Shown: positions 1 to 18,676 of the stretch, one piece after another | How positions within the stretch are numbered: the stretch's first letter is position 1 | Layout of the letters: each line of letters starts with the position of its first letter | Position numbers and translations under genes: made by a program | Source: Roseateles sp. | GTDB taxonomy: Bacteria; Pseudomonadota; Gammaproteobacteria; Burkholderiales; Burkholderiaceae_C | Assembly: GCA_016790285.1 (NCBI GenBank) | Contig: JAEUPJ010000019.1 | Span: 1 to 32,718, forward strand | Reading direction: 5' to 3' | DNA: 32,718 bases | The notes under the pieces: model-generated | Seen by the model: the letters and a program-made list of their open reading frames with translations, nothing else | What the model was told of the DNA's origin: nothing | Database searches by the model: none

Positions 1-1
1 C

Positions 2-1417
2 GAGTACGCCTGGTTCAACAACGTCGAGACCAAGCCCGGCATCGGCTACCCGAAGGAGTGGGAGAACCAGGACAAGTGGAACGGCGGCTGGGTGCGCAAG
101 GCCGACGGCTCCATCGTCCCCAGGCAAGGCGGCAAGTGGCAACTGCTGATGAAGATCTTCGCCAACCCCAACCTGCCGGAGATCGACGACTACTACGAGC
201 CCTTCACCTTCGACTACGACCATCTGCAGTCGGCGCCGGAGATGAAGCACGCGCCCACCGCGCGGCCGCGCAGCCTGATCACCGGGCAGCGCATGGAGAA
301 GATCGAGTGGGGTCCGAACTGGGAGGAAATCCTCGGCGGCGAATTCAGCAAGCGCTCGAAGGACAAGAACTTCGACGACGTGCAGAAGGAGATCTACGGC
401 CAGTTCGAGAACACCTTCATGATGTACCTGCCCAGGCTGTGCGAGCACTGCCTGAACCCGGCCTGCGTCGCCAGCTGTCCCTCGGGCTCGATCTACAAGC
501 GCGAGGAAGACGGCATCGTGCTGATCGACCAGGACAAGTGCCGCGGCTGGCGCATGTGCGTGTCGGGCTGCCCCTACAAGAAGATTTACTACAACTGGAA
601 AAGCGGCAAGGCGGAGAAGTGCATCTTCTGCTACCCGCGTATCGAGGCCGGTCAGCCCACGGTCTGCTCCGAGACCTGCGTCGGTCGCATCCGCTACCTG
701 GGTGTGCTGCTCTATGACGCCGACCGCATCGCCGAGGCCGCGGCCACGCCGAACGACAAGGACCTCTACCAGGCCCAGCTTGACCTGTTCCTCGACCCCT
801 TCGACCCCAAGGTGATCGAGCAGGCCCGCAATGACGGCATTCCCGACAACTGGCTAGAGGCGGCGAAGAACAGCCCCGTCTACCAGATGGCCGTGGACTG
901 GAAGGTGGCCCTGCCCCTGCACCCGGAGTACCGCACCCTGCCCATGGTCTGGTACGTGCCGCCGCTGTCGCCGATCAGCGCCGCGGCGAATGCCGGCCAG
1001 ATCGGTTCGGTGGGCGAGCTGCCCGACGTGAATCAGCTGCGCATCCCGGTCAAGTACCTGGCCAATCTGCTGACCGCCGGCGACACCGCGCCGGTGATCG
1101 GTGCGCTGGAGCGCATGCTGGCCATGCGCGCCTTCCAGCGCGGCGTGCATGTGGACGGCGTGAAGAACCATGCCGTGCTCAAGCAGGCCGGCATCACCGA
1201 GGCCCAGGTGCAGGACATGTACCGCGTGATGGCGATCGCCAATTACGAGGACCGCTTCGTGATCCCGACCACGCACCGCGAGTACGCGGAGAACGCCTTC
1301 AATGTGCGCGGCGGCTGCGGCTTCAGCTTCGGCAACGGCTGCTCCGAGGGCGTGACCGAGACCAGCCTGTTCGGCTCGGAGAAGAAGCGCACCATCCCCA
1401 TCAAGGCGACGCTGTGA
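2..1417 (+). CDS. narH: Respiratory nitrate reductase beta subunit (5' end outside window)
   Basis: Electron-transfer subunit of the membrane-bound nitrate reductase NarGHI. It passes electrons from the heme b subunit NarI to the Mo-containing NarG on the cytoplasmic face. The frame is open from base 2 and already reads NarH-like sequence (EYAWFNNVETKPG), so the start lies upstream. Four cysteine clusters are visible: CEHCLNPACVASCP (about base 440), CRGWRMCVSGCP (about 540), CIFC (about 620) and CSETC (about 665). The Trp in CRGWRMC is the substitution that gives NarH one 3Fe-4S cluster among its 4Fe-4S clusters. The C-terminus contains an extra Cys pair (GGCGFSFGNGCSEG). It is followed after 11 bases by narJ. 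Identification is firm. Confidence 0.97.
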   Translation, partial: EYAWFNNVETKPGIGYPKEWENQDKWNGGWVRKADGSIVPRQGGKWQLLMKIFANPNLPEIDDYYEPFTFDYDHLQSAPEMKHAPTARPRSLITGQRMEKIEWGPNWEEILGGEFSKRSKDKNFDDVQKEIYGQFENTFMMYLPRLCEHCLNPACVASCPSGSIYKREEDGIVLIDQDKCRGWRMCVSGCPYKKIYYNWKSGKAEKCIFCYPRIEAGQPTVCSETCVGRIRYLGVLLYDADRIAEAAATPNDKDLYQAQLDLFLDPFDPKVIEQARNDGIPDNWLEAAKNSPVYQMAVDWKVALPLHPEYRTLPMVWYVPPLSPISAAANAGQIGSVGELPDVNQLRIPVKYLANLLTAGDTAPVIGALERMLAMRAFQRGVHVDGVKNHAVLKQAGITEAQVQDMYRVMAIANYEDRFVIPTTHREYAENAFNVRGGCGFSFGNGCSEGVTETSLFGSEKKRTIPIKATL

Positions 1418-1428
1418 AGGGACACCTC

Positions 1429-2115
1429 ATGTTCAAACCCGATCCCTGCCCTTACAGCCTACGCGTGCTGGCCGCGCTGCTGCGCTACCCGGACGCGAGC
1501 TTCCGGGCCGCCATCCCCGAGCTGCAGCAGGCGCTGCGCAGCGAGGGCGCGCTGCGGGCGGCGCGCCTGGAAGAGCTCTGCGCTCTGCTGGGCCGTCTGC
1601 AACGCGACGACCCGTTCACGGTCGAGTCGGATTACGTCGAACTCTTCGACCGCGGCCGCGGCACCGCCCTGCATCTGTTCGAGCATGTGCATGGCGACTC
1701 GCGCGAGCGCGGCCCGGCCATGATCGATCTGCAGCAAACCTACGAGAAGGCCGGGCTCTACCTCGCCCCTGGCGAGCTGCCCGATCACCTAGCCGTGGTG
1801 CTGGAGTTCGCCAGCACCCAGCCGCCGCGCGAGGCCACGGCCTTCCTGGCCGAGATCGCCCACATCGCTCGCGCCATCTTCAGCGCGCTGCTGCGCCGCC
1901 AATCGCCCTACGCCAGCGTGCTGGCCGCCGTGCTGGAGTTGGCCGGCGAGCGCGCCGAATCGGTGGAGATCCCGCCCGAGCCCGAGCTCGACGAGGCCTG
2001 GGCCGAGCCCGAAGCCTTCGGCGGCTGTTCGACCGCCGGCCAATCCAAGCCGGACCAGCCGCAGCCCATCCACATCGTGCGCAAGACCGCCCACTCCTCA
2101 GGAGCACAGGCATGA
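1429..2115 (+). CDS. narJ: Nitrate reductase molybdenum cofactor assembly chaperone NarJ
   Basis: Cytoplasmic system-specific chaperone of 228 residues that binds apo-NarG and allows Moco insertion and membrane attachment of NarGH. Family features are the helical TorD/NarJ core with LRVLAALLRYPD near the N-terminus, YVELFDRGRGTALHLFEHVHGDSRERGPAM around residues 75-105 and YLAPGELPDHLAVVLEF at about 110-130. The ATG at 1429 is chosen because an AAGG motif lies 8 bases upstream; a GTG at 1414 in the same frame would overlap the narH stop. The C-terminal 40 residues are acidic and proline-rich and look disordered. The stop overlaps the narI start (ATGA), so translation is probably coupled. Confidence 0.95.
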   Translation: MFKPDPCPYSLRVLAALLRYPDASFRAAIPELQQALRSEGALRAARLEELCALLGRLQRDDPFTVESDYVELFDRGRGTALHLFEHVHGDSRERGPAMIDLQQTYEKAGLYLAPGELPDHLAVVLEFASTQPPREATAFLAEIAHIARAIFSALLRRQSPYASVLAAVLELAGERAESVEIPPEPELDEAWAEPEAFGGCSTAGQSKPDQPQPIHIVRKTAHSSGAQA

Positions 2116-2813
2116 ACGCCCTGCACAACTTCCTCTTCGTCGTCTACCCCTACATCTGCCTGGCGGTCTTCTTCATGGGCAGCCTGGCCCGCTTCGACCG
2201 CGACCAGTACACCTGGAAAAGCGACAGCTCGCAGATGCTGCGCTCGCGCGGCATGAAGTGGGCGAGCAATCTGTTCCATGGCGGCATCCTCTTCCTGTTC
2301 GTCGGCCACACGGTGGGCATGCTGACCCCGCACGCGGTCTACGAGTCCTTCATCAGCCCGGCCAACAAGCAGATGCTGGCCATCGTCGCCGGCGGCGTGG
2401 CCGGCACCGCCTGCTTCATCGGCCTGACCATGCTGATCTGGCGCCGCATGACCGACCCGCGCATCCGCCTGACCAGCCACCGCACCGACCTGGCGATCCT
2501 GTGGATCCTGTGGATTCAGCTGTCCCTCGGCCTGATCACCTTGCCCTTCTCGCTGTCGCACAGCGACGGCTCGGTGATGCTGATCCTGTCGGACTGGGCG
2601 CAGCGCATCGTCGTGCTGAACCCGGACGCCAGCGGCCTGGTCGGTCTGGCCTGGCCCTACAAGGTGCACATGGTGCTGGGCATGACGATCTTCCTGCTGT
2701 TCCCCTTCAGCCGCCTGGTGCATGTGTGGAGCGGGCTGGCTTCGATCTTCTATGTGTTCCGGCCGTATCAAGTGGTGCGCTCGCGCCGCCTGAATTTGCC
2801 GAAGAAGGGCTGA
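2112..2813 (+). CDS. narI: Respiratory nitrate reductase gamma (cytochrome b) subunit
   Basis: Integral membrane diheme cytochrome b of 233 residues that oxidises quinol at the periplasmic side and sends electrons to NarH. About five hydrophobic helices are visible. Candidate axial histidines are in NLFHGGILFLFVGHTVGM (helix 2) and in the last helices (HMVLGMTIFLLFPFSRLVHVW). Length matches the family (about 225-240). The start overlaps the narJ stop by 4 bases. The gene after it begins 4 bases downstream, so narHJI and the isomerase look like one transcript, with narG and probably narK upstream of the window. Confidence 0.96.
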   Translation: MNALHNFLFVVYPYICLAVFFMGSLARFDRDQYTWKSDSSQMLRSRGMKWASNLFHGGILFLFVGHTVGMLTPHAVYESFISPANKQMLAIVAGGVAGTACFIGLTMLIWRRMTDPRIRLTSHRTDLAILWILWIQLSLGLITLPFSLSHSDGSVMLILSDWAQRIVVLNPDASGLVGLAWPYKVHMVLGMTIFLLFPFSRLVHVWSGLASIFYVFRPYQVVRSRRLNLPKKG

Positions 2814-2817
2814 TGCG

Positions 2818-3570
2818 ATGAGCTACGCCGTCAACGACATCGAGATCGCCGCGCCTGACGAGGCACTGGACGAAGAGCAACTGCGCCAGCGCGCCTGCAC
2901 CGAGCTGCTGCGCCAGCGAGCGATTCAGCTCGGCCTGCTGGATGCCGACGACCCCGCGCCCGAACAGGGCGCGATCAGCGAGGCAGCCTCGGCCGCCATC
3001 GAGGCGCTGATCGCCCAGGAACTCGCCGGGCCCGAGCCCGACGAGGCCGCCTGCCGCCGGCATTACGAGGCCAACAGCAAGCACTTCGCGCAGGGCGAGC
3101 GCATCCAGGTGCGGCACATCCTGTTCGCCGTCACGCCGGGTGTCGACGTCGGCCTGCTGCGCCAGAAGGCCGAGGGCCATCTGATCGAGCTGCGCGCCAG
3201 CGAGCCGGCGGCGTTCACCACCGCGGCCAAGAACCTGTCCAACTGCCCGAGCGGTGCCGAGGGCGGCCAATTGGGGTGGCTCACCGCCAACGACTGCGCT
3301 CCCGAGTTCGCCCGCGAACTCTTCGGCCGCAGCGAGATCGGCGTGCTGCCGCAGCTGGTGCACAGCCGCTTCGGCCTGCACATCGTCGCCATCGACGCCC
3401 GCGAACCCGGCCGCCTGCCGGCCTTCGAGCAGGTGCAGGCCGCAGTGGCGCAGCAGATGCGCCAGGCGCACCAGATCAGCGCGGTGCGGCAGTACTTGCA
3501 GACGCTGGCTGCCGATGCGCGCCTGGAGGGTGTCGATCTGCAAAAGGCCAGCTCGCCCTTGGTGCAGTAG
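2818..3570 (+). CDS. Parvulin-type peptidyl-prolyl cis-trans isomerase (NifM/PpiC-like)
   Basis: A 250-residue protein with an N-terminal helical region and a C-terminal rotamase (PF00639-type) domain, about residues 95-200. Recognisable elements are IQVRHILFAV, the FTTAAKNLSNCPSGAEGGQLGWL loop and LVHSRFGLHIVAI. Such isomerases commonly sit after narI in betaproteobacterial nar operons, and the resemblance to NifM, the nitrogenase Fe-protein maturation factor, suggests a folding role for nitrate reductase. That role is inference. There is no signal peptide, so a cytoplasmic location is expected. It starts 4 bases after the narI stop. Its stop codon directly abuts a large inverted-repeat element. 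Confidence 0.9.
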   Translation: MSYAVNDIEIAAPDEALDEEQLRQRACTELLRQRAIQLGLLDADDPAPEQGAISEAASAAIEALIAQELAGPEPDEAACRRHYEANSKHFAQGERIQVRHILFAVTPGVDVGLLRQKAEGHLIELRASEPAAFTTAAKNLSNCPSGAEGGQLGWLTANDCAPEFARELFGRSEIGVLPQLVHSRFGLHIVAIDAREPGRLPAFEQVQAAVAQQMRQAHQISAVRQYLQTLAADARLEGVDLQKASSPLVQ

Positions 3571-3835
3571 GGCCTCCTGACGCCATGAGAAGCCAACGCG
3601 TTGCCATCCAGAAAGGGCGCCAACGAGGCGCGAAACGAAGCCGGGGTAGATCCCCCGGCGAGGCTTCGCAACGAAGTGGGCGCCCTTATCTGGTGGCAAC
3701 CCGGAGGGAACGGGCCTGGCCGACCGCCATGCGTTGTTGCACCGCTCGCCCAGGCGCTAGCCTGGGCGTCGCGCCGCGCCTAGCCTGGCGGTCGGCCAGA
3801 CTCGTTCGCGTGGCTTCTCATGGCGTCAGGAGGCC
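3571..3835. repeat. 265-bp multi-hairpin element with perfect 25-bp terminal inverted repeats
   Basis: The first 25 bases (3571-3595, starting GGCCTCCTGACGCC) are the exact reverse complement of the last 25 (3811-3835). Further inverted repeats lie inside: an imperfect pair at 3601-3622 and 3679-3699 enclosing a CCGGGG/CCCCGG hairpin at about 3636-3667; a 14-bp perfect pair at 3716-3729 and 3786-3799; and within that an 8-bp perfect stem with a 4-base loop at 3748-3767. The strand could fold into a long basal stem with two branched arms. The element starts right after the isomerase stop and its right arm contains the AGGAGG that serves the carbonic anhydrase gene. It may be a MITE-like insertion, a structured leader RNA, or both. 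No ORF of convincing quality is present. Confidence 0.85.
3828..3833 (+). promoter_or_regulatory. Shine-Dalgarno of carbonic anhydrase inside the inverted repeat
   Basis: AGGAGG lies 5 bases before the ATG at 3839 and is fully inside the right 25-bp arm. If the RNA runs through from the nar operon, the left arm can pair with it and hide the ribosome-binding site. The pairing is seen in the sequence; the regulatory effect is inference. Confidence 0.7.
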
Positions 3836-3838
3836 CTG

Positions 3839-4528
3839 ATGCCCGACGAGCTGCTCGAACGCCTGCGCCGCTTCCAGACCGATGCCTTCCCGCAGCAGCG
3901 CTCGCTGTTCCGGCATCTGGTCGACGACGGCCAACATCCGCTGACGCTGTTCATCGGCTGCTCCGATTCGCGCCTCGTGCCCTATCTGCTGACCGGGGCC
4001 GGGCCCGGCGAGCTCTTCCTGGTGCGCAACGTTGGTGCCTTTGTGCCGCCCCATGACCAGAGCCAGGGCTTCCACGGCACGGCCGCCGCCATCGAGTTCG
4101 CCGTGCTCAACCTGCAGGTGCGCCGCATCATCGTCTGCGGCCACAGCCATTGCGGCGCCATCCGCACGCTGTACGGCGAGGTACCGCCCGCCGCCCAGAA
4201 CCTGGCGCGCTGGCTGGACCTCGGCCGCGAGGCGGCCCTGCCCGTCGCCGAGCCTGGTCCCGAGGTGATGCGCCGCACCGAGCAGCGCGCCATCGTGCTG
4301 CAGCTGGAGCGGCTGATGGACTACCCCATGGTGCGCGAGCAGGTGGAGTCGCACGCGCTGACCCTGCACGGCTGGCATTACGTCATCGAGGACGGCGAAG
4401 TGCATGTCTTCGACGTCGGCGTCGGCGCCTTCGTGCCCGCCTCGCGCGCCGACAACGCAGGCACCGGACCCTACCGCTTCGGTGATGCTGACAGCGGCCT
4501 GGACGCCAGCGGCGTTCCGCTGGCTTGA
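3839..4528 (+). CDS. Beta-class carbonic anhydrase
   Basis: Zinc enzyme that interconverts CO2 and bicarbonate in the cytoplasm, 229 residues. The family's zinc ligands and catalytic dyad are present: Cys41-x-Asp43-x-Arg45 in CSDSR, and His102/Cys105 in GHSHCGA. The RNVGAFVPP and GTAAAIEFAV stretches are also typical. The ATG is supported by AGGAGG 5 bases upstream. Its position between nar and ubiquinone genes suggests expression with anaerobic metabolism, perhaps to supply bicarbonate for carboxylation. This is inference; the sequence shows only the neighbourhood and the unusual structured leader. Confidence 0.93.
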   Translation: MPDELLERLRRFQTDAFPQQRSLFRHLVDDGQHPLTLFIGCSDSRLVPYLLTGAGPGELFLVRNVGAFVPPHDQSQGFHGTAAAIEFAVLNLQVRRIIVCGHSHCGAIRTLYGEVPPAAQNLARWLDLGREAALPVAEPGPEVMRRTEQRAIVLQLERLMDYPMVREQVESHALTLHGWHYVIEDGEVHVFDVGVGAFVPASRADNAGTGPYRFGDADSGLDASGVPLA

Positions 4529-4538
4529 ACTGGATCAA
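4525..4538 (+). promoter_or_regulatory. FNR/DNR-type box upstream of the DUF2249-ubiUVT run
   Basis: TTGAACTGGATCAA matches the TTGAT-N4-ATCAA consensus in 9 of 10 fixed positions. Its centre is about 41.5 bases before a start point near 4573, and a TAGGCT hexamer at 4561-4566 fits a -10 element. This is the classical class II activator geometry. It overlaps the end of the carbonic anhydrase gene. Confidence 0.75.
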
Positions 4539-4574
4539 GGCGCGCAGGCGTCGCCGGCCCTAGGCTGCCGGTCC

Positions 4575-4874
4575 ATGAACAACGCCCTTCACGACCTCCG
4601 CCCGCTCGCCCCGCCGCAGCGCCACCAGCTCGCCTTCCAGTGCTTCGACACCCTCGCCGAGGGCGAGGCCTTCGACTTGGTCAACGACCACGAACCGCGT
4701 GGACTGCTGATGCAGTTCCACGCCTACCGCCCGCAGTCCTTCAACTGGCAGGTGGTGCAGGCCAATCCCGGCTACTGGCGCATCCGCATCACCTGCGCTG
4801 CTCCCGGCGGGGCGACGGCGCCCGCTCCCCAGGGCGGCGGCTGCGGATGTGGTGGCGGTGGTGGCTGCTCCTGA
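4575..4874 (+). CDS. DUF2249 domain protein with Cys/Gly-rich tail
   Basis: Small protein of 99 residues with a TusA-like alpha/beta fold family signature: DLRPLAPPQRHQLAFQCFDTLAEGEAFDLVNDHEPRGL is the usual DUF2249 core (shown in part), followed by FNWQVVQ and a strand ending WRIRI. The C-terminal tail GGGCGCGGGGGCS carries three cysteines and could bind a metal or sulfur, which is inference. DUF2249 proteins are frequent beside denitrification and nitrate-reduction genes, but their function is not established. No Shine-Dalgarno is evident, and the predicted transcription start is only about 2 bases before the ATG, so the mRNA may be leaderless. The gene ends 2 bases before ubiU. Confidence 0.85.
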   Translation: MNNALHDLRPLAPPQRHQLAFQCFDTLAEGEAFDLVNDHEPRGLLMQFHAYRPQSFNWQVVQANPGYWRIRITCAAPGGATAPAPQGGGCGCGGGGGCS

Positions 4875-4876
4875 GC

Positions 4877-5920
4877 ATGACGGCCGCTGCCCTCACGCCA
4901 GCGCCGCGCAAGCCTGAGCTGGTCTGCCCGGCCGGCTCGCTGCGTGCGCTGCAACTTGCCCTCGAGGCTGGTGCCGACGCCGTCTACCTCGGCCTGAAGG
5001 ACGCGACCAATGCACGCAACTTCGCCGGCCTGAACTTCGACGCCGCCCAGGTGCACGAAGGCGTCACGATGGCCCATCGCCAGGGCCGCCAGGTGCTGAT
5101 GGCGCTCAACACCTTTGCCGACGCCCGCGACACCCGGCCCTGGCAGCGCGCCGTCGACCATGCCGCCGAGCTGGGTGCCGATGCCCTCATCGTGGCCGAC
5201 AGCGCCGTGCTGGCCGATGCCAGCCGCCGCCATCCGCAGCTGCGCCTGCATCTGTCGGTGCAGGCCTCGGCCACCAATTGGGAGGCCATCGAGTTCTATC
5301 GGCAGCGCTACGGCATCGCCCGCGCCGTGCTGCCGCGCGTGCTGACGCTGCAGCAAGTGCAGCAGCTGCTCAAGCACTGCACCGTGCCGGTCGAGGTCTT
5401 CGGCTTCGGCAGCCTGTGCGTGATGGTGGAGGGGCGCTGTGCCCTGTCCAGCTACGCGACGGGCCAGTCGCCCAACACGGCCGGCGTCTGTTCGCCGCCC
5501 GGTGCGGTGCGCTGGGACGAGGCCGCCGACGGCGTGCGCGCGCGTCTCGGCGGCGTGCTGATCGACCATTACCGCCCCGGCGAACCGCGCGGCTACCCGA
5601 CGCTGTGCAAGGGCCGCTTCGAGGTGGGCGAGCTGGCCAACGACTACGCGCTGGAAGAGCCCACCAGCCTCAACACCCTGGCCCTGCTGCCGCAGCTGAT
5701 CGCCACCGGCGTGGAGGCCATCAAGATCGAAGGCCGCCAGCGCAGCCCCGCCTATGTGGCCGAGGTCACCAAGGTCTGGCGCGCCGCCATCGACGCCGCC
5801 TGGGCCGCCCAGGAGGGCCGCGGCCGCTACAGCGTGCAGCCGGCCTGGGACGGCCAGCTGGCCCGCTGGGCCGAGGGCCAGCAGCACACATTGGGCGCCT
5901 ACGACCGCCCCTGGAGATGA
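4877..5920 (+). CDS. ubiU: O2-independent ubiquinone hydroxylation protein UbiU (peptidase U32 family)
   Basis: Partner of UbiV in the O2-independent hydroxylation of ubiquinone precursors, which uses prephenate as oxygen donor in characterised enterobacteria. The 347-residue protein is a U32-family TIM-barrel. It has the family start PELVCPAGSLRALQLALEAGADAVYLG (in part), FGFGSLCVMVEGRC and the final IKIEGRQRSPAYV. Four cysteines that match the 4Fe-4S ligands of UbiU are present at about residues 181, 188, 205 and 244. The ATG at 4877 is 2 bases after the DUF2249 stop. Order ubiU-ubiV-ubiT in one overlapping run strongly supports the assignment over a collagenase-like protease. Confidence 0.93.
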   Translation: MTAAALTPAPRKPELVCPAGSLRALQLALEAGADAVYLGLKDATNARNFAGLNFDAAQVHEGVTMAHRQGRQVLMALNTFADARDTRPWQRAVDHAAELGADALIVADSAVLADASRRHPQLRLHLSVQASATNWEAIEFYRQRYGIARAVLPRVLTLQQVQQLLKHCTVPVEVFGFGSLCVMVEGRCALSSYATGQSPNTAGVCSPPGAVRWDEAADGVRARLGGVLIDHYRPGEPRGYPTLCKGRFEVGELANDYALEEPTSLNTLALLPQLIATGVEAIKIEGRQRSPAYVAEVTKVWRAAIDAAWAAQEGRGRYSVQPAWDGQLARWAEGQQHTLGAYDRPWR

Positions 5921-5925
5921 AGACG

Positions 5926-6822
5926 ATGCCGGAGTTGTCCATCGGCCCCCTGCTGTACTGGTGGCCGCGCGAGGCCGTGCTGAACTTCTATGCCGACCTG
6001 GCCGACGCGCCGGTGCGCAGCGTCGTGCTGGGCGAGCTGGTCTGCTCACGGCGCAACGAGATCAAGTTCGACGACTGGCTGGCCCTCGCCCGCGAGCTGC
6101 GCACCGCCGGCAAGGATGTGCGCCTGGCCACCATGGCCCTGGTCATGAGCGAGGCCGAGCTGCGCACGCTGCGCCGCGTCTGCGAGCAGGACGAGTTTCC
6201 CGTCGAGGCCGGCGACGCCGCCGCGCTGCAGGTGTTGTCGCGCGCCCGGCGCCGTCCCTTCACGCTCGGCCCCCACCTGAACATCTACAACGCTGCCGCC
6301 CTCGGTGAGCACGCGGCCCTAGGCGCCGACCGCTGGGTGGCGCCGGTCGAGCTGTCGCTGGACGCGGTAGCGCTCATCAACCCCATGCCGTCGGCCCTTG
6401 AGACCGAGGTCTGGGGCTTCGGCCGCCTGCCGCTGGCCTTCTCGGCGCGCTGCTTCACGGCCCGCCATCACCGGCTGCAGAAGGACGACTGCCAGTTCCG
6501 CTGCCGCGACGATGCCGACGGCCTGCTGCTGAAGACGGGGGAAGGCGAGGACTTCCTGGCCCTCAACGGCATCCAGACCCAGAGCGCGGCCCTGCAATGC
6601 CTGCTGGGCCAGGGCCAGGCGCTGCGCGAGGCCGGCGTCGGCCTGCTGCGGCTGTCGCCCTGCGGCCAGCACTTCGGCCGCGTTGTCGAACTGTTCGACG
6701 CCGTGTTCGCGCGCGGCGCCCCCGCCGAGGAGGCGCTGGACGAGCTGCGCGGGCTGCCGCTGCCGGGCCGCCTGGTAGACGGCTTCGCGCGCCGCCAGCC
6801 CGGTCTCGCGGAGGTGGCATGA
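5926..6822 (+). CDS. ubiV: O2-independent ubiquinone hydroxylation protein UbiV (peptidase U32 family)
   Basis: Second subunit of the UbiU-UbiV heterodimer, 298 residues from ATG 5926. The iron-sulfur cysteines expected for UbiV are at 40 (GELVCSRRNE) and 176, 189 and 193 (SARCFTARHH...DDCQFRC). An in-frame ATG at 5917 overlaps the ubiU stop (ATGA), but GGAG at 5913-5916 is spaced 9 bases from 5926 and touches 5917, so 5926 is preferred. The stop overlaps the start of ubiT. The protein contains GPHLNIYN and VWGFGRLPLAFSARC, typical of this branch of U32 proteins. Confidence 0.92.
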   Translation: MPELSIGPLLYWWPREAVLNFYADLADAPVRSVVLGELVCSRRNEIKFDDWLALARELRTAGKDVRLATMALVMSEAELRTLRRVCEQDEFPVEAGDAAALQVLSRARRRPFTLGPHLNIYNAAALGEHAALGADRWVAPVELSLDAVALINPMPSALETEVWGFGRLPLAFSARCFTARHHRLQKDDCQFRCRDDADGLLLKTGEGEDFLALNGIQTQSAALQCLLGQGQALREAGVGLLRLSPCGQHFGRVVELFDAVFARGAPAEEALDELRGLPLPGRLVDGFARRQPGLAEVA

Positions 6823-7247
6823 CGAGCCTGACCCTGCCCAGCCTGCCGCCGCAATGGCGCGAGCGCGTCGCCCGCCTGCCCAGCCGGCCACCTTCCACGG
6901 CCCTGGCCCTGCTGCTTGACCGCCTGCTGCTGCCGCGCCTGGACGCCTCCCAGCGCGAAGCCCTGCAGGGTCGCACCGTCGAGATCGAGCTGCAGGAACT
7001 CGGCGCCCGCGTGCGCCTGCAGCTCGGCCCGCGCGGCTTTCACGCCGCCGGCGAGGGCGCGGCGCCCCATCTGCGCCTGCGTGCCCGCGCCGACGCGCTG
7101 TGGCGGCTTCTGCGCGGCGAGGACGACGCCGACCGCCTGTTCTTCGACGGCGCCCTCGTCATGGAGGGCGACACCGAGTACGGCCTCATCCTGAAAAACA
7201 CCCTGGACGCGATCGGTCCGCTGTGGACCGTCGCGCCTGCCCGATGA
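6819..7247 (+). CDS. ubiT: SCP2-domain ubiquinone accessory factor UbiT
   Basis: A 142-residue SCP2/sterol-carrier-like lipid-binding protein, the anaerobic counterpart of UbiJ, thought to hold hydrophobic quinone intermediates for the Ubi enzymes. The SCP2 core shows as VEIELQELGARVRLQLG, LRLRARADALWRLLRGEDDADRLFFDGAL (in part) and MEGDTEYGLILKNTLDAI at the end. The start overlaps the ubiV stop (ATGA), and its own stop overlaps the next ATG, so the run is translationally coupled. The assignment rests on the domain and on ubiU/ubiV adjacency. Confidence 0.9.
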   Translation: MTSLTLPSLPPQWRERVARLPSRPPSTALALLLDRLLLPRLDASQREALQGRTVEIELQELGARVRLQLGPRGFHAAGEGAAPHLRLRARADALWRLLRGEDDADRLFFDGALVMEGDTEYGLILKNTLDAIGPLWTVAPAR

Positions 7248-8302
7248 TGAAACGACGCCTCCTGCTGGCCGCTGCCGCGGCCACCCCACTGCTGAGTGCA
7301 GCCGACGCCCCGGTGCAGCGCCTGGCCCTGGCCTGGCGCCTGGCCGACGGGCGCGAGCAGGCCGGCCTGCTCGGCCTGGACTGGGGCGCCCGCCGGATCG
7401 ACATGCTGGCCGCCTGGACCCTGCCCAGCCGCGCCCATGGCCTGATCGCCGACGGCCGGGGCGGCTTCTATGCCGTCGCAGCGCGGGCGGGCGACTGGCT
7501 GCTGCATGTCGACGCCGCCGGCGCCGCCACCTGGGCTCGCCAGGACGGTGCCTGGCGCTTCAACGGCCATCTGCTGCTGCACCCGGCCGGCCTGTTCGCC
7601 ACCGAGACCGACCCGCGCGACGAGAGCTCCCACCTGGCCCTGCGCGAACCGCGCACGCTGGCACTGATCGCCCGCCTGCCGCTGGCTGGCCGCGACGCCC
7701 ATCAGCTGGTGGCGGAGCCCGACGGCCGCCTGCTGCTCGCCCTCGGCGGCCTGCGGCGCTGGCCGGATGGACGCAAGCGCGAAGGCGCCATTGCCTCGGC
7801 GCTGCTGAAGCTGGACCCGACTACCGGCGGTGAACTGGCACGCTGGCGCCTGGACGACCCGGACATCAGCCTGCGCCATCTCGCCTGGTCCCACGACGGC
7901 CAGCGCCTCGGCATCGCACTGCAGGCCGCGCACGCGGCCAAGGAACGCCGCGCGGCCGCGCCGCTGCTGGCCGTCTTCGAGGGCGACCAGCTGCAGCTGC
8001 CCGTGGCCGGCGGGCCGGGCCAGGGCTATGCCGGCGACATCTGTGCCGCGCCCGGCGGCGGCTTCGTGCTCAGCGCGCAGAAGGCCGGCCAGGGGCTGCT
8101 GTGGCAACCGGGCGTGCCGGCCGACCTGACCCGCATCGCCGAGCTCACCGATCCCTGCGCGCTGCACGACGGCTGGCATGGCGGTGAGCGCGCCGTGCTG
8201 CTGGTGGCCGGCCGCGGCGTCGCGCGCTGGCAGGCCAACGGCGCACAGATGCTGGCCTGGCCCCAACCCCTGGCACCCGACAACCACGCGGTGCTGGTTT
8301 GA
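7244..8302 (+). CDS. DUF1513 family protein, exported propeller-like
   Basis: A 352-residue protein with a basic N-terminus and hydrophobic run (MMKRRLLLAAAAATPLLSA) that reads as a signal sequence. KRR resembles but does not fully match a twin-arginine motif. The rest has repeating blade-like elements such as HGLIADGRGGFYAVAAR, HLAWSHDGQRLGIAL and GYAGDICAAPGGGFVLSA, which suggests a beta-propeller in the periplasm. DUF1513 proteins elsewhere often occur with iron or peroxidase-type export genes, and function is unknown. Here the ATG overlaps the ubiT stop, which ties it to the FNR-controlled quinone run. A second ATG at 7247 is an equally possible start. Confidence 0.75.
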   Translation: MMKRRLLLAAAAATPLLSAADAPVQRLALAWRLADGREQAGLLGLDWGARRIDMLAAWTLPSRAHGLIADGRGGFYAVAARAGDWLLHVDAAGAATWARQDGAWRFNGHLLLHPAGLFATETDPRDESSHLALREPRTLALIARLPLAGRDAHQLVAEPDGRLLLALGGLRRWPDGRKREGAIASALLKLDPTTGGELARWRLDDPDISLRHLAWSHDGQRLGIALQAAHAAKERRAAAPLLAVFEGDQLQLPVAGGPGQGYAGDICAAPGGGFVLSAQKAGQGLLWQPGVPADLTRIAELTDPCALHDGWHGGERAVLLVAGRGVARWQANGAQMLAWPQPLAPDNHAVLV

Positions 8303-8306
8303 AGAA

Positions 8307-8325
8307 GCGGCGCCACGAGCGCCGC
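8307..8325 (+). other. Intercistronic GC hairpin
   Basis: GCGGCGC, a 5-base loop and GCGCCGC form a perfect 7-bp stem between the DUF1513 gene and the AAGGAG of the next gene. There is no T-run, so it is not a convincing intrinsic terminator. It may pause transcription or stabilise mRNA ends. Confidence 0.45.
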
Positions 8326-8336
8326 AAGGAGTTCCC

Positions 8337-9992
8337 ATGCCTTCCCCTTCCACCCTGGCCCAGCGCCTCGTCGATGCGCTGCTGGCGCGCGGTGCGCGCG
8401 AGATCTTCGGCATCCCCGGTGACTTCGCGCTGCCGCTGTTCCGCGAGATCGAACGCGACGGCCGCCTGCCCATCCTGACCCTGGCCCACGAGCCCGGCGT
8501 CGGCTTCGCGGCCGACGCGACGGCGCGCGTGCGCGGCGGCCTCGGCGTGGCTGCCGTCACCTATGGCGCCGGTGCCCTCAACCTCGTCAACGCGGTGGCC
8601 GGTGCCTATGCCGAGCGCGTGCCCCTGGTGGTGCTGTCGGGCGCACCGGCGGCCCACGAGGCCGTCAGCGGCCTGCTGCTGCACCACCAGGTCAAGCAGC
8701 TCGACTCGCAGTGGCGGCTCTACGAGGAGATCACCGTCGACCGCGCGCGGCTGGACGACCTCGAGCGCGCGCCCCAGGCCATCGCCCGCGTCCTGGACAA
8801 CGCCCTGGCCCGCTCGCGGCCGGTCTACCTCGAGATCCCGCGCGACCTGCCGGGGCGGCCCTGCGCCGAGGTGCCGGCGCCCGCGCCGCGGCGCTGGGAT
8901 GCCGAGCGCGTGGCCGCCTGCGCCGACGAGCTGCTGGCGCGGCTGCGTGCGGCGCGCGACCCGCTGCTGGTCGTCGGCGTCGAGGTCAGGCGCTACGGCC
9001 TCGAGGCGCGTGTCGCCGAGCTGGCGCGGCGCCTGGGCCTGCCGGTGTTGACGAGCTTCATGGGCCGCGGCCTGCTGGCCGATGCCGACCTGCCGCTGGC
9101 GGGCACCTATCTCGGCCTGGCCGGCGACCCCGAGCTGAGCCGGCGCGTGGAGGCCTCGGACGCGCTGCTGCTGCTGGGCGTCATCGTGTCGGACACCAAC
9201 TTCGCCGTGTCGGCCCGGCGCATCGACTTCCGCCATGCCCTGGTGGCCTATGACGACGAGGTGCGTGTCGGCCACCACGTCTACCCGGAGCTGCCACTGG
9301 CGGCCCTGGTCGATGCGCTGCTCGAGCGCTGTCCGCTGCCGCGCAGCGCCGTCGCGGCGCCGCCCGCGCCGCCGAGCTATCCGCAAGGCCTGGTCGAGGA
9401 CGAGGCGCCGGTCGAGCCGGCCGACATCGCCCGCGCCATCAACGACGCCTTCGCCCGCCACGGCCCCATGCCCATCGCCTGCGACGTCGGCGACTGCCTG
9501 TTCACCGCCATGGCGGTGCTGCCCACGGCCCTGCTGGCGCCGGGCTACTACGCCACCATGGGCTATGGGGTGCCGGCCGGCCTCGGCCTGCAGCGCGCCA
9601 GCGGCCAGCGCCCCCTCATCCTCGTCGGCGACGGCGCCTTCCAGATGACCGGCTGGGAGATCGGCCACGCCGCCCGCCTGGGCCTCGACCCCATCGTCAT
9701 CGTCTTCAACAACGGCGGCTGGGAGATGCTGCGCAGCTTCATGCCCGAGGGCGGCTTCCACGACCTCGGCGCCTGGGACTTCGCCGCCATGGCCGCCGGC
9801 ATGGGCGGCGACGGCTACACGGTGCAGACGCGCGCCGAGCTGGGCGCCGCCTTGCGCCAGGCCCTGGCAACGCGCGGCTGCTTCCAGCTCATCGACGTCC
9901 GCCTCGCCCCCGGCGCACGCTCGCCAACGCTGCAGCGCTTTGTGCAGGCGGTGCGGCGCCTGTCCATGCCCGAGGCCGTCGTAGCTTCTTGA
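8337..9992 (+). CDS. Thiamine-diphosphate 2-keto acid decarboxylase (indolepyruvate/phenylpyruvate decarboxylase type)
   Basis: A 551-residue ThDP enzyme that decarboxylates an aromatic or branched 2-keto acid to the aldehyde. Visible features are the cofactor-activating Glu52 in LAHEPGVGF, the paired catalytic histidines 116-117 (LLLHHQVKQ) that mark the pyruvate/indolepyruvate decarboxylase branch, and the ThDP-Mg motif GDGAFQMTGWEIG through VFNNGGWEM at about 431-465. Domains run PYR, central TPP_enzyme_M, then PP. It has an AAGGAG 7 bases before ATG and follows the DUF1513 gene by 34 bases, so it can be the last gene of the ubiUVT run. Substrate cannot be fixed from sequence. Acetolactate synthase is less likely because of the HH pair. 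Confidence 0.85.
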   Translation: MPSPSTLAQRLVDALLARGAREIFGIPGDFALPLFREIERDGRLPILTLAHEPGVGFAADATARVRGGLGVAAVTYGAGALNLVNAVAGAYAERVPLVVLSGAPAAHEAVSGLLLHHQVKQLDSQWRLYEEITVDRARLDDLERAPQAIARVLDNALARSRPVYLEIPRDLPGRPCAEVPAPAPRRWDAERVAACADELLARLRAARDPLLVVGVEVRRYGLEARVAELARRLGLPVLTSFMGRGLLADADLPLAGTYLGLAGDPELSRRVEASDALLLLGVIVSDTNFAVSARRIDFRHALVAYDDEVRVGHHVYPELPLAALVDALLERCPLPRSAVAAPPAPPSYPQGLVEDEAPVEPADIARAINDAFARHGPMPIACDVGDCLFTAMAVLPTALLAPGYYATMGYGVPAGLGLQRASGQRPLILVGDGAFQMTGWEIGHAARLGLDPIVIVFNNGGWEMLRSFMPEGGFHDLGAWDFAAMAAGMGGDGYTVQTRAELGAALRQALATRGCFQLIDVRLAPGARSPTLQRFVQAVRRLSMPEAVVAS

Positions 9993-10002
9993 CCTGGTTC
10001 AA
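9989..10002 (+). promoter_or_regulatory. FNR/DNR-type box upstream of nrdD
   Basis: TTGACCTGGTTCAA matches TTGAT-N4-ATCAA in 8 of 10 fixed positions and is self-complementary at its ends. Its centre plus 41.5 bases falls near 10037, and TAGATG at 10030-10035 is a possible -10 element. It sits over the stop codon of the preceding gene. Confidence 0.7.
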
Positions 10003-10083
10003 GGACGTCGCCGAGCCTGCTGGTCACACTGCCCTTCACTAGATGTAGCGCCTCTCTGCGTTGCAAACACCATAGGTAGTGGA

Positions 10084-12093
10084 ATGAATCTCTATCCCCA
10101 GCAGGTGATGAAGCGCGACGGCCGCCTGCAGGCCTTCGACGCGGACAAGATCATGCAGGCCCTGGCCGCCGCCGGACGCGCCAGCGGCGAGTTCGGCGAC
10201 GACGAGGCGCGCCGGCTGACCGAGAACGGCGTGATGCCCGAGCTGATGGCGCACACCCTGCCGGGCATCGAGCTGATCCAGGACGCCGTCGAGTCCACGC
10301 TGTTCGGTGCCGGCTGGCGCCGCACGTTGCGCGCCTACATCGTCTACCGCGAGCAGCACCGCCGCCTGCGCGATGCCCGCCAGACGCTGGTCGATGTGCA
10401 GGCCACGATGAACGAATACCTGCAGCAGCGCGACTGGCGCATCCAGGCCAATGCCAACCAGGGGTGGAGCCTGGGCGGGCTCATCCTCAACGTCTCGGGC
10501 AAGGTCGTCGCCAACTACTGGCTGGACCATGTCTACCCGCCCGAGGTCGGCCGCGCCCACCGCGAGGCCGACCTCCACATCCACGACCTCGACATGCTCA
10601 GCGGCTACTGCGCCGGCTGGAGCCTGCGCACCCTGCTGCACGAGGGGCTGAACGGCGTGCCCGGCAAGGTCGAGGCCGGGCCGCCGAAGCATCTCTCGAG
10701 CGCCGTCGGGCAAATCGTCAACTTCCTCGGCACCCTGCAGAACGAATGGGCCGGCGCACAGGCCTTCTCCAGCTTCGACACCTATCTGGCGCCCTATGTG
10801 CGCAAGGACGCGCTTTCCTACGAGCAGGTGCGCCAGTGCCTGCAGGAGCTGATCTACAACCTCAACGTGCCCTCGCGCTGGGGCACGCAGACGCCCTTCA
10901 CCAACCTGACCTTTGACTGGACCTGCCCGGCCGACCTCGCCGAGCAGGTGCCCGTCATCGCCGGCGAGGAGCAGCCCTTCACCTATGGCGAGCTGCAAGC
11001 CGAGATGGACCTCATCAACCGCGCCTACATAGCCGTGATGACGGCCGGAGACGCCAAGGGCCGCGTCTTCACCTTTCCCATTCCGACCTACAACATCACG
11101 AAAGACTTCGACTGGGCCCACCCCAACACCGAAGCCCTGTTCGAGATGACGGCGCGCTACGGCCTGCCATATTTCCAGAACTTCCTGAACTCCGACCTCG
11201 AGCCGCAGATGGTGCGCTCCATGTGCTGCCGGCTGCAACTGGACCTGCGCGAGCTGCTCAAGCGCGGCAACGGCCTGTTCGGCTCGGCCGAGCAGACCGG
11301 CTCAGTCGGCGTCGTCACGGTGAACTGCGCGCGGCTGGGCTATCTGTTCGCGGGCGACGAGGCCGGCCTGCTGACCCGCCTGGACCGCCTGCTGGAGCTG
11401 GGCCGCGACAGCCTAGAGATCAAGCGCAAGCTGATCCAGCGCCTCATCGACCAGGGGCTGTTCCCCTACACGCGGCGCTATCTGCGCACCCTGCGCAACC
11501 ACTTCTCGACGCTGGGCGTGAACGGCATCAACGAGATGGTGCGCAATTTCACCCGCGGCCGGCACGACATCACGAGCGAGGAAGGCCATGCCCTGGCCCT
11601 GCGCCTGCTGGACCATGTGCGGGCGCGCATGGTGGAGTTCCAGGAGCAGACCGGCCATCTCTACAACCTCGAGGCCACGCCGGCCGAGGGCACGACCTAC
11701 CGCTTCGCCAAGGAGGACCGGCGCCGCTGGCCCGCCATCCTGCAAGCCGGCAGCGACGCGAATCCCTACTACACCAACAGCTCGCAGCTGCCCGTCGGCT
11801 TCACCGACGACCCCTTCGAGGCCCTGGAGCGCCAGGAGGAGCTGCAGCGCAAATACACCGGCGGCACGGTGCTGCACCTCTACATGAGCGAGCGCATCAG
11901 CTCGGCCATGGCCTGCCGCGAGCTGGTCAAGCGGGCGCTGTCCCACCACCGCCTGCCCTATGTGACCGTGACGCCGACCTTCTCGATCTGCCCGACCCAC
12001 GGCTATCTGAGCGGCCACCACGAGTTCTGCCCCCGATGCGACGCCGAGCGACTGGCCGCCAAGCGTCGTCAATCCGAAACCGAACCCGCCTGA
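10084..12093 (+). CDS. nrdD: Anaerobic (class III) ribonucleoside-triphosphate reductase, large part lacking the glycyl-radical tail
   Basis: Reduces ribonucleoside triphosphates to deoxy forms without oxygen. The 669 residues begin with an ATP-cone (VMKRDGRLQAFDADKIMQAL) that senses ATP/dATP, followed by the ten-stranded barrel with MCCRLQLDLRELLKRGNGLFG (in part) and the finger-loop region around GVVTVNCARLGYLF. The C-terminal zinc site is present as CPTHGYLSGHHEFCPRC (Cys636, His639, Cys649, Cys652). The usual RVxGY glycyl-radical motif after the zinc site is missing, because a TGA ends the frame. It reappears in the same frame in the next small gene. The start follows the FNR box by about 80 bases. 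Confidence 0.93.
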   Translation: MNLYPQQVMKRDGRLQAFDADKIMQALAAAGRASGEFGDDEARRLTENGVMPELMAHTLPGIELIQDAVESTLFGAGWRRTLRAYIVYREQHRRLRDARQTLVDVQATMNEYLQQRDWRIQANANQGWSLGGLILNVSGKVVANYWLDHVYPPEVGRAHREADLHIHDLDMLSGYCAGWSLRTLLHEGLNGVPGKVEAGPPKHLSSAVGQIVNFLGTLQNEWAGAQAFSSFDTYLAPYVRKDALSYEQVRQCLQELIYNLNVPSRWGTQTPFTNLTFDWTCPADLAEQVPVIAGEEQPFTYGELQAEMDLINRAYIAVMTAGDAKGRVFTFPIPTYNITKDFDWAHPNTEALFEMTARYGLPYFQNFLNSDLEPQMVRSMCCRLQLDLRELLKRGNGLFGSAEQTGSVGVVTVNCARLGYLFAGDEAGLLTRLDRLLELGRDSLEIKRKLIQRLIDQGLFPYTRRYLRTLRNHFSTLGVNGINEMVRNFTRGRHDITSEEGHALALRLLDHVRARMVEFQEQTGHLYNLEATPAEGTTYRFAKEDRRRWPAILQAGSDANPYYTNSSQLPVGFTDDPFEALERQEELQRKYTGGTVLHLYMSERISSAMACRELVKRALSHHRLPYVTVTPTFSICPTHGYLSGHHEFCPRCDAERLAAKRRQSETEPA

Positions 12094-12102
12094 GGAGATC
12101 CC

Positions 12103-12285
12103 ATGAACGCTGTCATCGAACGCCAGGACGAGGCCATCACGCTGCGCGAAGAGGAACGCCAGCGCTGCGAGGTCTGGACCCGCGTGATGGGCTATCACCG
12201 CCCCGTCGCCTCCTTCAACATCGGCAAGCAGGGCGAGTTCGCCGAGCGTGTTCACTTCGAGGAAGGCCGAGTGCAGTCGCGATGA
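12103..12285 (+). CDS. Stand-alone glycyl-radical peptide of class III ribonucleotide reductase
   Basis: A 60-residue peptide containing RVMGYHRPVASFNIGKQGEF, which corresponds to the RVxGY glycyl-radical motif and following tail of NrdD; Gly30 is the predicted radical site. It begins 9 bases after the nrdD TGA, in the same reading frame, with its own GAGGAG 5 bases before the ATG. It is therefore either a deliberately separate subunit or a readthrough extension of NrdD. Its end overlaps nrdG (ATGA), whose product would install the radical. The closest functional parallel is the detached glycyl-radical cofactor GrcA/YfiD of pyruvate formate-lyase. Motif recognition is strong; the mode of assembly is inference. 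Confidence 0.88.
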   Translation: MNAVIERQDEAITLREEERQRCEVWTRVMGYHRPVASFNIGKQGEFAERVHFEEGRVQSR

Positions 12286-12971
12286 GCCAACTGGCCGTCG
12301 CCGGCCTGCAGCCCTTCAGCAGCGTCGACTTCCCCGGCCGCCTGGCGGCCGTGGTCTTTCTGCAGGGCTGCCCCTGGCGCTGCGGCTATTGCCACAACCC
12401 CGGCCTGCAGCCGCGGGGCAGGGGGGAAGGCCCGCGCTGGCCTGAGCTGCGCGACTGGCTGGCGCGCCGCCTGGGCCGGCTCGATGGCGTCGTCTTCAGC
12501 GGCGGCGAACCGACGCTGGACCCGGCCCTGCCGGCCGTTCTCGACGAGTTGCGAGCCATGGGCTATGCCCTCGGCCTGCACACGGCCGGCCTGGCGCCGC
12601 GCTGCCTGGGCGGTCTGCTGCCGCGCCTGGACTGGGTGGGGCTGGACATCAAGGCCGCGCTCGGCGACGCGAGCCTGCACGACCGCATCACCGGCCGCCG
12701 CGCCAGCACGCGCGCGGTGCGCGACTCCCTGGCCCTGCTGCGGGCCAGCGGCGTGGATTTCGAATGCCGCAGCACCGTGCATCCGGCTTGGTTCAGCGAC
12801 GCCGACCTGCTGCGCCTGGTGCGCGAGCTGGCTGGTGTGCCACGCCATGTGCTGCAGCTCGCGCGCCTGCCCGATGCATCGGGCAGTTTGCGCGCGCCGG
12901 TGGCCTGGCCCTCGCCCGCCTTGCTGGCTGAGGCCCGGGCCATCCGGCCCGGCCTGCTGCTGCGGACCTAA
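12282..12971 (+). CDS. nrdG: Anaerobic ribonucleotide reductase activating protein (radical SAM)
   Basis: Radical S-adenosylmethionine enzyme of 229 residues that generates the glycyl radical on the reductase. The CxxxCxxC cluster motif is CPWRCGYC (Cys30, 34, 37), followed by HNPGLQ, the SAM-binding VFSGGEPTLDP and DWVGLDIKA. The start overlaps the stop of the small glycyl-radical peptide gene, consistent with coupled synthesis of activator and target. The stop overlaps, convergently by 4 bases, the stop of the reverse-strand gene next to it. Confidence 0.94.
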   Translation: MSQLAVAGLQPFSSVDFPGRLAAVVFLQGCPWRCGYCHNPGLQPRGRGEGPRWPELRDWLARRLGRLDGVVFSGGEPTLDPALPAVLDELRAMGYALGLHTAGLAPRCLGGLLPRLDWVGLDIKAALGDASLHDRITGRRASTRAVRDSLALLRASGVDFECRSTVHPAWFSDADLLRLVRELAGVPRHVLQLARLPDASGSLRAPVAWPSPALLAEARAIRPGLLLRT

Positions 12972-13360
12972 CCGATCAGCACGGCCTCGCCGGCCGGGTT
13001 GAAGGGCAGCAGGCCGCCGAACTCGCCGCTCTCCACGCGCTTGACCAGCAGCTCCAGCATGCGCTTGACCTCGCTGGCCGTCGTGCGCCCGGCCAGGGCG
13101 GCGGTGAACATCAGCTGCCAGGTGGGGCCGGCCTGACGCGCCTCGGCGGCCAGGGCCTCGAAGTTGGCCAGGTCGGCCGGGTCCTTGTCCACGCACATCA
13201 GCGGGCGCAGCACGCCGCCCTTGCCGGCGGCATGAGCGGCGCGCTGCTCGGGCGTCGCGTCGGCGTCGCATTCGGCGGTGGTGAAGACCATCAGCAGATG
13301 CTGGGGTTCGCGTTGCCTGCGGGCCATGGCCAGCAGGTCGTCAAAGTGTTCGATGTTCAT
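12968..13360 (-). CDS. Small conserved protein of the family commonly labelled 'ribonucleotide reductase subunit alpha'
   Basis: A 130-residue cytoplasmic protein beginning MNIEHFDDLLAMARRQREPQ and containing LLMVFTTAECDADATPEQ, LRPLMCVDKDPADLANFEAL (in part) and GEFGGLLPFNPAGE. I recognise this pattern from Burkholderiales proteins given the 'ribonucleotide reductase subunit alpha' name. It has none of the RNR catalytic cysteines or barrel motifs, so the label is almost certainly transferred in error. Function is unknown. It lies between nrdG and moaA on the opposite strand and converges on nrdG with a 4-base overlap. The ATG at 13358-13360 is chosen because the longer upstream frame runs into a low-complexity intergenic region. 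Confidence 0.75.
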   Translation of the reverse strand: MNIEHFDDLLAMARRQREPQHLLMVFTTAECDADATPEQRAAHAAGKGGVLRPLMCVDKDPADLANFEALAAEARQAGPTWQLMFTAALAGRTTASEVKRMLELLVKRVESGEFGGLLPFNPAGEAVLIG

Positions 13361-13504
13361 CGAGGTCCAGTCTGAGCCGCCGCGAGGCGGCGCGGCGCCT
13401 CCGACGGAGGAGGGCGGGGTCGTCCGAAAGGAGGAGGCCGCGCCGGTCGCTGTCCTGCCACGGCCGGATGGGCCGCAGCGACGCGGCGCCCAAGAATCGG
13501 TCAC
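13361..13504. promoter_or_regulatory. Divergent intergenic region with GC hairpins
   Basis: This 144-bp gap separates a reverse-strand gene and moaA, so it must hold both promoters. It contains GCCGCC-GCGA-GGCGGC (about 13376-13391) and CCTCC-GAC-GGAGG (about 13397-13409). No FNR-type box was found in it. Confidence 0.4.
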
Positions 13505-14560: not shown

Positions 14561-14571
14561 ATCACCCCAGC

Positions 14572-14585
14572 TTGAACTGCATCAC
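14572..14585 (+). promoter_or_regulatory. FNR/DNR-type box upstream of the nitronate monooxygenase-like gene
   Basis: TTGAACTGCATCAC matches TTGAT-N4-ATCAA in 8 of 10 fixed positions and lies 55 bases before the ATG at 14640. A good -10 hexamer at the expected place (about 14607-14613) is not obvious. Confidence 0.55.
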
Positions 14586-14639
14586 AGCGGCGTTTCAATC
14601 TTGACGCCAGCATCGACTTTTCCCTCAACCGCCCCAGCC

Positions 14640-17062: not shown

Positions 17063-17064
17063 GC

Positions 17065-17748
17065 ATGGACACCGTTCCCATCGAGCGCTGGCTGCGGCGC
17101 TTGCCCATCTTCAGCGAGATCGATGCAGCCTCGTTGCAGCACCTGGCCGCCGAGGCTCGCTGGCGGCCACTGGAGCGCGGCGCTTTCGCGCTACGGGCCG
17201 GCGACAGCTGCGAGGCCTTCTTTGTCAACCTCGGCGAGCCAGTCAAGCTCTTCGTACTGGCGCCTAATGGCAACGAAAAGGTCATCGAGCTGGTGGCGAC
17301 CGGCCAGAGCTTTGGCGAGGCGCTGATGTTCCTCGGCCGGCCGAGCCCGGTGAACGCGCAGGCCCTGGGAGATACCCGTCTGCTGGTGCTACCGCGCGAC
17401 GCGATGTTGGCGGCGATGGCGGCCGACCAGCGCCTGGCCCTGCGCATGCTGGCCGGCCTGAGCCGGCGCCTGCATGGCCTGGTCGGCGATGTGCAGGCCT
17501 ATGCCTTGCAGTCCGGCGTGCAGCGCGTCATCGGCTATCTGCTGCGCGATGCTGGCGACGATGGCGCCAGCACCGTGGTGCTGCCGGTCAGCAAGGCGAC
17601 GCTGGCCTCGCGGCTGTCGCTGACGCCCGAGTACTTCTCGCGCGTGTTGCACGAGCTGGAGGGGGGCAGGCTGATCGCGGTCGAAGGGCGGCGTATCCAA
17701 ATCGGCGACGTCAAGCGCCTCGCCGCCTATCCTCACCCTAGGTGTTGA
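17065..17748 (+). CDS. Crp/Fnr family transcriptional regulator, DNR/NnrR-like
   Basis: A 227-residue regulator with a cyclic-nucleotide-binding-fold sensor domain (about 10-130: LPIFSEIDAASLQHLA, FGEALMFLGRPSPVNAQAL), a dimerisation helix and a C-terminal helix-turn-helix (SKATLASRLSLTPEYFSRVL, about 175-200). The N-terminal cysteine cluster of FNR is absent, which points to the DNR/NnrR group that senses NO through heme. The arginine/serine pair expected for cAMP binding is not seen. It is a good candidate for the protein that reads the TTGA-N6-TCAA boxes of this window. The end overlaps the convergent reverse-strand gene by 11 bases. Confidence 0.88.
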   Translation: MDTVPIERWLRRLPIFSEIDAASLQHLAAEARWRPLERGAFALRAGDSCEAFFVNLGEPVKLFVLAPNGNEKVIELVATGQSFGEALMFLGRPSPVNAQALGDTRLLVLPRDAMLAAMAADQRLALRMLAGLSRRLHGLVGDVQAYALQSGVQRVIGYLLRDAGDDGASTVVLPVSKATLASRLSLTPEYFSRVLHELEGGRLIAVEGRRIQIGDVKRLAAYPHPRC

Positions 17749-18640: not shown

Positions 18641-18676
18641 GGTGGCCCATGCTCGGCTCCCTGATCAGGGCTGGCC

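Follow-up and report, generated by a model that had tools for sequence, protein, structure and literature searches.

The junction between an isomerase gene and a carbonic anhydrase gene in Roseateles sp. (GCA_016790285.1, contig JAEUPJ010000019.1) is occupied by a long palindromic stretch, which raises the question of whether it is a structured leader of the downstream gene or an inserted mobile element. The window, meaning the whole stretch of 32,718 nucleotides that was analyzed, carries a Rotamase gene (isomerase; 2818-3570) and a Pro_CA gene (carbonic anhydrase; 3839-4528), with nitrate reductase beta, delta, and gamma genes upstream of the pair. An NRDD gene (anaerobic ribonucleotide reductase) lies at 10084-12093, near the nar genes. 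The initial annotation had described perfect repeats enclosing a branched fold, a left arm touching the isomerase stop codon, and an AGGAGG in the right arm 5 bases before the carbonic anhydrase ATG. All three were found, the first at slightly larger size: the inverted repeat is perfect over 27 bp (3569-3595 with 3811-3837), and the element proper is 267 bp long, between TA and TG (Table 1). The isomerase stop TAG occupies 3568-3570, with its G supplied by the element, and the ATG begins at 3839. The element has no open reading frame of 80 or more amino acids, and a transposase gene is absent.

Table 1. Features of the element and its borders in the window (., no strand).
Feature	Position	Strand	Basis
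TA at left end; with G3570 forms the isomerase stop TAG	3568..3569	.	sequence; family target YTAR with TA/TA
Y-shaped MITE-like element, 267 bp, without transposase gene	3570..3836	+	fold, copies, family comparison
Basal stem, left half (left terminal inverted repeat), GGGCCTCCTGACGCCA..., altered form of GGGCCTGTTAACACTA	3570..3595	+	
Arm 1 hairpin	3597..3703	+	fold and inverted-repeat pair; motif common to both arms in the family
Tiny CCC..GGG hairpin separating arm 1 from arm 2; shares bases with both arms as delimited by the repeat search	3700..3708	+	folds, sequence
Arm 2 hairpin; in the family, arm 1 motif in reverse complement	3708..3807	+	inverted-repeat pair, fold
Basal stem, right half (right terminal inverted repeat)	3811..3836	+	sequence
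AGGAGG, Shine-Dalgarno-like, within right terminal repeat, 5 nt before carbonic anhydrase ATG	3828..3833	+	
TG at right end; TA usual there in the family	3837..3838	.	sequence, family tally

The predicted RNA fold of 3566-3845 reached -207 kcal/mol (200 shuffles, -127.5 +/- 5.1; z, -15.55; none as good) and runs in the order basal stem, arm 1, tiny CCC..GGG hairpin, arm 2; of four inverted-repeat pairs given by a repeat search, one is the basal stem and two are the arms. The AGGAGG is complementary to CCTCCT at 3573-3578 and is paired in the predicted fold, as the initial annotation had said of the ribosome-binding site, with a hypothetical effect on expression. This complementarity and the very stable mRNA-strand fold are what speak for an evolved cis-regulatory leader or riboswitch, in which the fold would hide the ribosome-binding site and open on a signal. 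The reverse strand of the same stretch also folds, with about the stability of the forward strand (-211 kcal/mol; z, -14.86). A scan of 3400-4000 for promoters and terminators found nothing promoter-like and a single terminator-like site, at 3659-3640 on the minus strand. Against a riboswitch, Rfam at the gathering score had no match to the element or anywhere else in the window, and a permissive search gave two sub-threshold matches (best, 14.5 bits versus 43.9). The same gathering-score search of 16 loci returned just a TPP riboswitch (L116, 5532-5634, minus strand), which lies beside, not inside, a copy of the element (5667-5932), 32 bases away.

The gene pair occurs elsewhere without the element, which also argues against a leader. 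Among 18 rows compared at the carbonic anhydrase start, the element was present in 2 (the own genome, G000, and G019) and missing from 14; in those 14, an isomerase-type stop lies shortly upstream of the start, and isomerase matches were found in all 14 genomes. The remaining 2 rows had no recognizable isomerase end in the 60 bases shown. In two genomes (G002 and G012), stop and start overlap at the empty site, which has the sequence CAGTGATG. The own genome carries a second nar-isomerase-carbonic anhydrase locus (C21:1-6500, L239), 85-88% identical and without the element, which abuts exactly at the insertion point. The copy in G019 is not independent; its contig (L390, G019:C180) is 99.85% identical to window positions 1-19531 over 19.5 kb, owing either to recent transfer of the nar region or to shared contamination. 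The tlyA-metF regions of these two genomes match a common query differently, despite the 99.85% identical nar contigs.

The own genome yielded a single full copy, where several would mark a MITE, and this is the least MITE-like point; many copies are held by G012, G026, and G199. An end-like site on another contig of the own genome (C14), with CTA before it, 2 mismatches, and no partner seen, may be the remnant of a copy. Matches to the element occurred in 37 of 199 genomes (own included; some only short weak stretches). In G026, which belongs to another genus, the interior as query gave 11 matches (one weak), and the ends gave 28 versus 0 for a reversed control. A two-end pattern recovered at least 119 stretches. 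Among the 80 matches listed, the hosts were mainly Beta-, Gamma-, and Zetaproteobacteria (Variovorax, Polaromonas, Achromobacter, Dyella, Azotobacter, Thiodiazotropha, and others); a few of the matches listed were in MAGs labelled Acidobacteria, Bacteroidota, or Longimicrobiales and may be binning errors. The window element had no match in plasmid and phage collections at an E value of 1e-5, and its left-arm string was absent from viral contigs. The two-end pattern matched 2 viral contigs (copies L191 and L192, counted in the tallies), and searches with other copies returned short chance-like matches and one 22-base match beside an IS5 transposase.

The copies are alike in length and plan. From 192 loci, 154 of 159 intervals were 263-268 bp long, a constancy partly built in by the 251-281 bp that the two-end pattern allowed; most copies were also 263-269 bp at 41 loci fetched by BLAST or by place with no length rule (1 without a match, a few with poor boundaries). 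Two of the 159 intervals were dropped (one chance pairing, one nested), and then 3 outside 258-272 bp, before stem scoring. The resulting 65 non-redundant elements have a mean identity of 51%, and their scored stem positions are 90-93% Watson-Crick; stems kept paired at about 51% identity are not what a plain MITE predicts. Folds of 14 elements on both strands mostly gave basal stem, arm, tiny CCC..GGG hairpin, and arm, the exceptions by minimum energy being L107 and one strand of L122. The arm motif is roughly CAAGGCGCG, about 45 nt, and GCAACGCCG (scorable in 56 and 57 of the 65 elements), and the two arms carry it in mutual reverse complement, so the element is an inverted duplication. Recent movement is indicated by copy pairs that are 93-99.6% identical over the element with flanks that do not match. 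At two loci (L300/L301 and L022/L044), different species hold copies in opposite orientation or of unlike sequence, which may have inserted independently at a shared hot spot.

Family copies share the ends GGGCCTGTTAACACTA, and exactly these canonical ends, with TA outside, were found on two IS5-family elements, one on an Enterobacter plasmid (L248) and one in a genome of the window's genus (L273, in G012). The plasmid element, found via the 22-base match, has ends and flanks C-TA-GGGCCTGTTAACACTA...TAGTGTTAACAGGCCC-TA-G; its two frames match DUF4096 and DDE_Tnp_1, and score 107.9 bits (one frame, just below the cut-off of 110) and 117.5 bits (the other) with the NCBI IS5_3 model. The G012 element is 72% identical to it over ORF B and has the same ends, and its contig stops at the right-hand TA. 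The left end of L273 is present twice, at 946 and 1108, 162 bp apart. Compared at the ends and target, both elements are like the family, with identical terminal repeats GGGCCTGTTAACACTA and TA outside; they differ in carrying a transposase, which family copies lack, and in length (L248, about 805 bp; L273, 823 bp from the inner left end). The target was TA/TA in 113 of 179 copies, and of 102 TA/TA copies in the tally, 93 had Y before and R after; YTAR is given as the IS5 target motif in an excerpt of PMC10359306. The window copy has TA/TG, outside the strict TA/TA form, and its own ends have diverged (GGGCCTCCTGACGCC), such that its target duplication is not intact. Identical ends on IS5-family elements together with YTAR/TA targets point to an IS5-type transposase acting in trans as the likely mover. 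The initial annotation had offered a MITE-like insertion as one option; it is supported by the sites found empty, the occurrence of copies at other places, the YTAR/TA targets, and the identity of the ends with those of IS5-family elements. A search of 9 genomes with ORF B of the plasmid transposase found no relative at an E value of 0.001 in 8 of them, two of which (G026 and G199) are rich in copies; we infer that the mover in those 8 genomes is absent or diverged, and that other IS5 relatives would serve or were lost.

Shortened copies bear on what movement requires. Thiodiazotropha has recurrent copies that measure about 231 bp between their outer ends (8 such pairs among the matches listed), and an alignment of two of these short copies shows most of arm 2 to be missing. 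A 27-bp nested repeat flanks arm 2 in a longer copy, which explains the loss. Copies with one or two nested 27-bp repeats (292 and 319 bp) and arm-2-depleted copies of 226-227 bp were seen in G199 (L194, L197, L202, and L211). Since arm-2-depleted copies recur, the whole interior is probably dispensable for movement. At L193:615, L199:194, L209:227, and L212:227, a TAGGGCCTGTTAACACTAATCCAATCGGCCCTA-like end of about 33 bp stands alone, and a 40-bp palindrome of abutting ends occurs at L196:142-181; these are perhaps deletion scars. No autonomous partner of the solo ends in Thiodiazotropha was found in stretches of up to about 4.5 kb, some much shorter.

Gene contexts were assigned for 180 copies, once duplicates had been discarded along with five genus loci whose lengths were odd or whose boundaries were poor. 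The orientations were ++ in 47, +- in 36, -+ in 34, and -- in 29, with a neighbor unassigned in 33; these counts are approximate, since they come from a simple coding-score gene caller, and the left gene called at L310 is contradicted by the sequence. A gene spans one of the 180 copies. Among 164 gene 3' ends that point toward a copy, 78 terminate precisely on the first base of that copy (TAG). YTAR is often the stop codon TAG and the element starts with G, so the stop codon is kept and the upstream protein is unchanged. At L306 and L310 (between tlyA-like and metF-like genes, named from translations), the element gives the upstream gene a new TGA stop and is itself 3 nt short of the ATG that follows, and the empty site there has overlapping stop and start. 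In G000:C18 and G013:C103, the tlyA-metF flanks are 127 bases apart; in most genus mates they are adjacent.

These contexts weigh against a leader, because copies adjoin unrelated genes, divergent and convergent arrangements included. The initial annotation had named many copies at unrelated places with no link to start codons as the mark of a plain MITE, and this is largely the pattern found (34 divergent and 36 convergent of 180). Mismatches tell the same way. In the 65 non-redundant elements, G.T and A.C mismatches number 95 to 92 in sum but are uneven by part (basal stem, 51 to 28; arm 1, 24 to 26; arm 2, 20 to 38). In the genus subfamily, the overall figures are 60 to 47 (P = 0.25), and on the mRNA strand in tandem contexts, G.U versus A.C is 87 to 78, no clear excess. 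With G.T and A.C even in sum, there is no overall sign of RNA-strand selection. The structured leader for carbonic anhydrase proposed by the initial annotation therefore lacks support as an evolved feature, in view of gene pairs that occur without the element, copies beside unrelated genes, and mismatches without overall RNA-strand bias, and we regard an evolved leader or riboswitch as highly improbable.

That the stems stay paired calls for its own explanation. A subfamily set of 23 copies was drawn from several genomes of the window's genus (some share a locus and are not independent); 26 of 50 loci gave no usable subfamily copy, and L384 was dropped because its left part did not match. These copies contain 126 double changes to another Watson-Crick pair versus a shuffle mean of 29 (maximum, 41). 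Double versus single changes number 104 versus 26 in the basal stem and 22 versus 118 in the arms (Fisher P = 1e-27, for related copies rather than independent events). Changed sites make up 240 of 1,194 in the basal stem (20%), 178 of 3,910 in the arm stems (4.6%), and 193 of 1,098 among unpaired positions (17.6%).

The surplus of double changes at the base fits template switching, in which replication rewrites one half of the basal stem from its partner and end pairing is kept by mutation rather than selection. Basal sites that change at 20%, near the rate of unpaired sites, agree with it, and a part of PMC8794818 reports that template switching creates and mends stems. The low rate in the arm stems is left unexplained by such a process, and we put its chances a little short of even. 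The slow arms suggest either constraint or conversion between copies. Constraint would follow if some of the older copies, in the window's genus at least, were kept by selection because they serve the host through mRNA stability, polarity, or DNA structure, and arm-stem sites do change less (4.6% versus 17.6% unpaired). At loci shared by related species (L278/L299/L303 and L306/L310), pairing is kept though the ends have decayed, and four-fold sites of the scorable flanking genes differ by 18-30% (for L306/L310, the left gene was not used). The one-sided changes at L306/L310 are 5 G.T and 0 A.C, on a pair list from a fold that favors G.U. Single arm changes across the 23 copies are 46 G.T versus 38 A.C (P = 0.45), where a clear excess is expected for a selected RNA. 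Nor is the element a fixture of its loci: among 20 genus genomes (own included), the tlyA-metF flanks are adjacent without a copy in 15 and hold a copy in 2, and among 20 genus genomes the purE-thioredoxin flanks lie within 40 bp in 16 and hold a copy in 3. Conversion between copies could also keep the arms alike, and copies without arm 2 multiplied in one genome. Retention for a host role is, on this balance, unlikely, and a host function of element copies is hypothetical and unproven.

The window element is very probably a MITE with IS5-family ends, for which an IS5-type transposase acting in trans is the likely mover and YTAR the target, and it most likely did not originate as a carbonic anhydrase switch. 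In the mechanism that we propose from ends and targets, an IS5-type transposase would recognize GGGCCTGTTAACACTA-type ends in trans, and insertion at YTAR would leave TA on either side. Where YTAR is a stop-codon TAG, as it often is, the element, starting with G, would restore the stop, and the insertion would be silent for the upstream protein. The interior consists of two long arms that share a motif and stand on either side of a tiny hairpin, and pairing of the ends closes it. At the isomerase/carbonic anhydrase junction of the window, the element would have landed between two genes that in some relatives have overlapping stop and start, and its right end would have become the new ribosome-binding region of carbonic anhydrase. 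As the mRNA fold would pair that region, carbonic anhydrase may plausibly be translated less, or without coupling, as a side effect. A wider reading is offered tentatively and is rather unlikely as a whole: a Proteobacteria-wide lineage of folded mini-transposons that borrows IS5-type transposases, with a two-armed, inverted-duplication interior that is not wholly needed and is nonetheless conserved over large divergence, a base kept concerted by replication template switching, and some end-decayed copies kept as structured spacers that provide a stop and a ribosome-binding region.

Known mini-elements resemble the family in part. MITEAba12, reported in PMC6382973 from Acinetobacter and one Moraxella genome, is likewise small, gene-less, nearly constant in length, and similar to its presumed mover in the terminal repeats only; unlike the present element, it is 111-114 bp long, with 9-bp target duplications and ends GGCTTTGTTGCACAAA (PMC6382973). 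QMITE2 of Coxiella burnetii, as portrayed in extracts of PMC10969869, is also a MITE with a transcript predicted to fold stably; it differs in its core of 113-145 bp and direct repeats of 7-9 bp, where the present element has two arms and TA. No description of the family or its ends appeared in search listings of the open-access PMC literature. Other intergenic palindromic repeats of bacteria are ERIC, Correia, and REP/BIME, some of which lie at TA; they are shorter, have other end sequences, and are set apart from the element by their descriptions. Out of the ordinary for the family are its breadth, the constancy of its fold, and the concerted base next to conserved arms.

A suspected riboswitch is thus reread as a mobile element, and misdirected work on the nar operon can be spared. 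The finding adds a MITE family spread across several proteobacterial classes, without an Rfam match and often seated in amber stops with the protein unchanged. Compensatory change is usually taken as a sign of selected RNA; here, it is densest in the basal stem and has no overall RNA-strand bias. The family is thus a natural test of the power of template switching to imitate RNA covariation.
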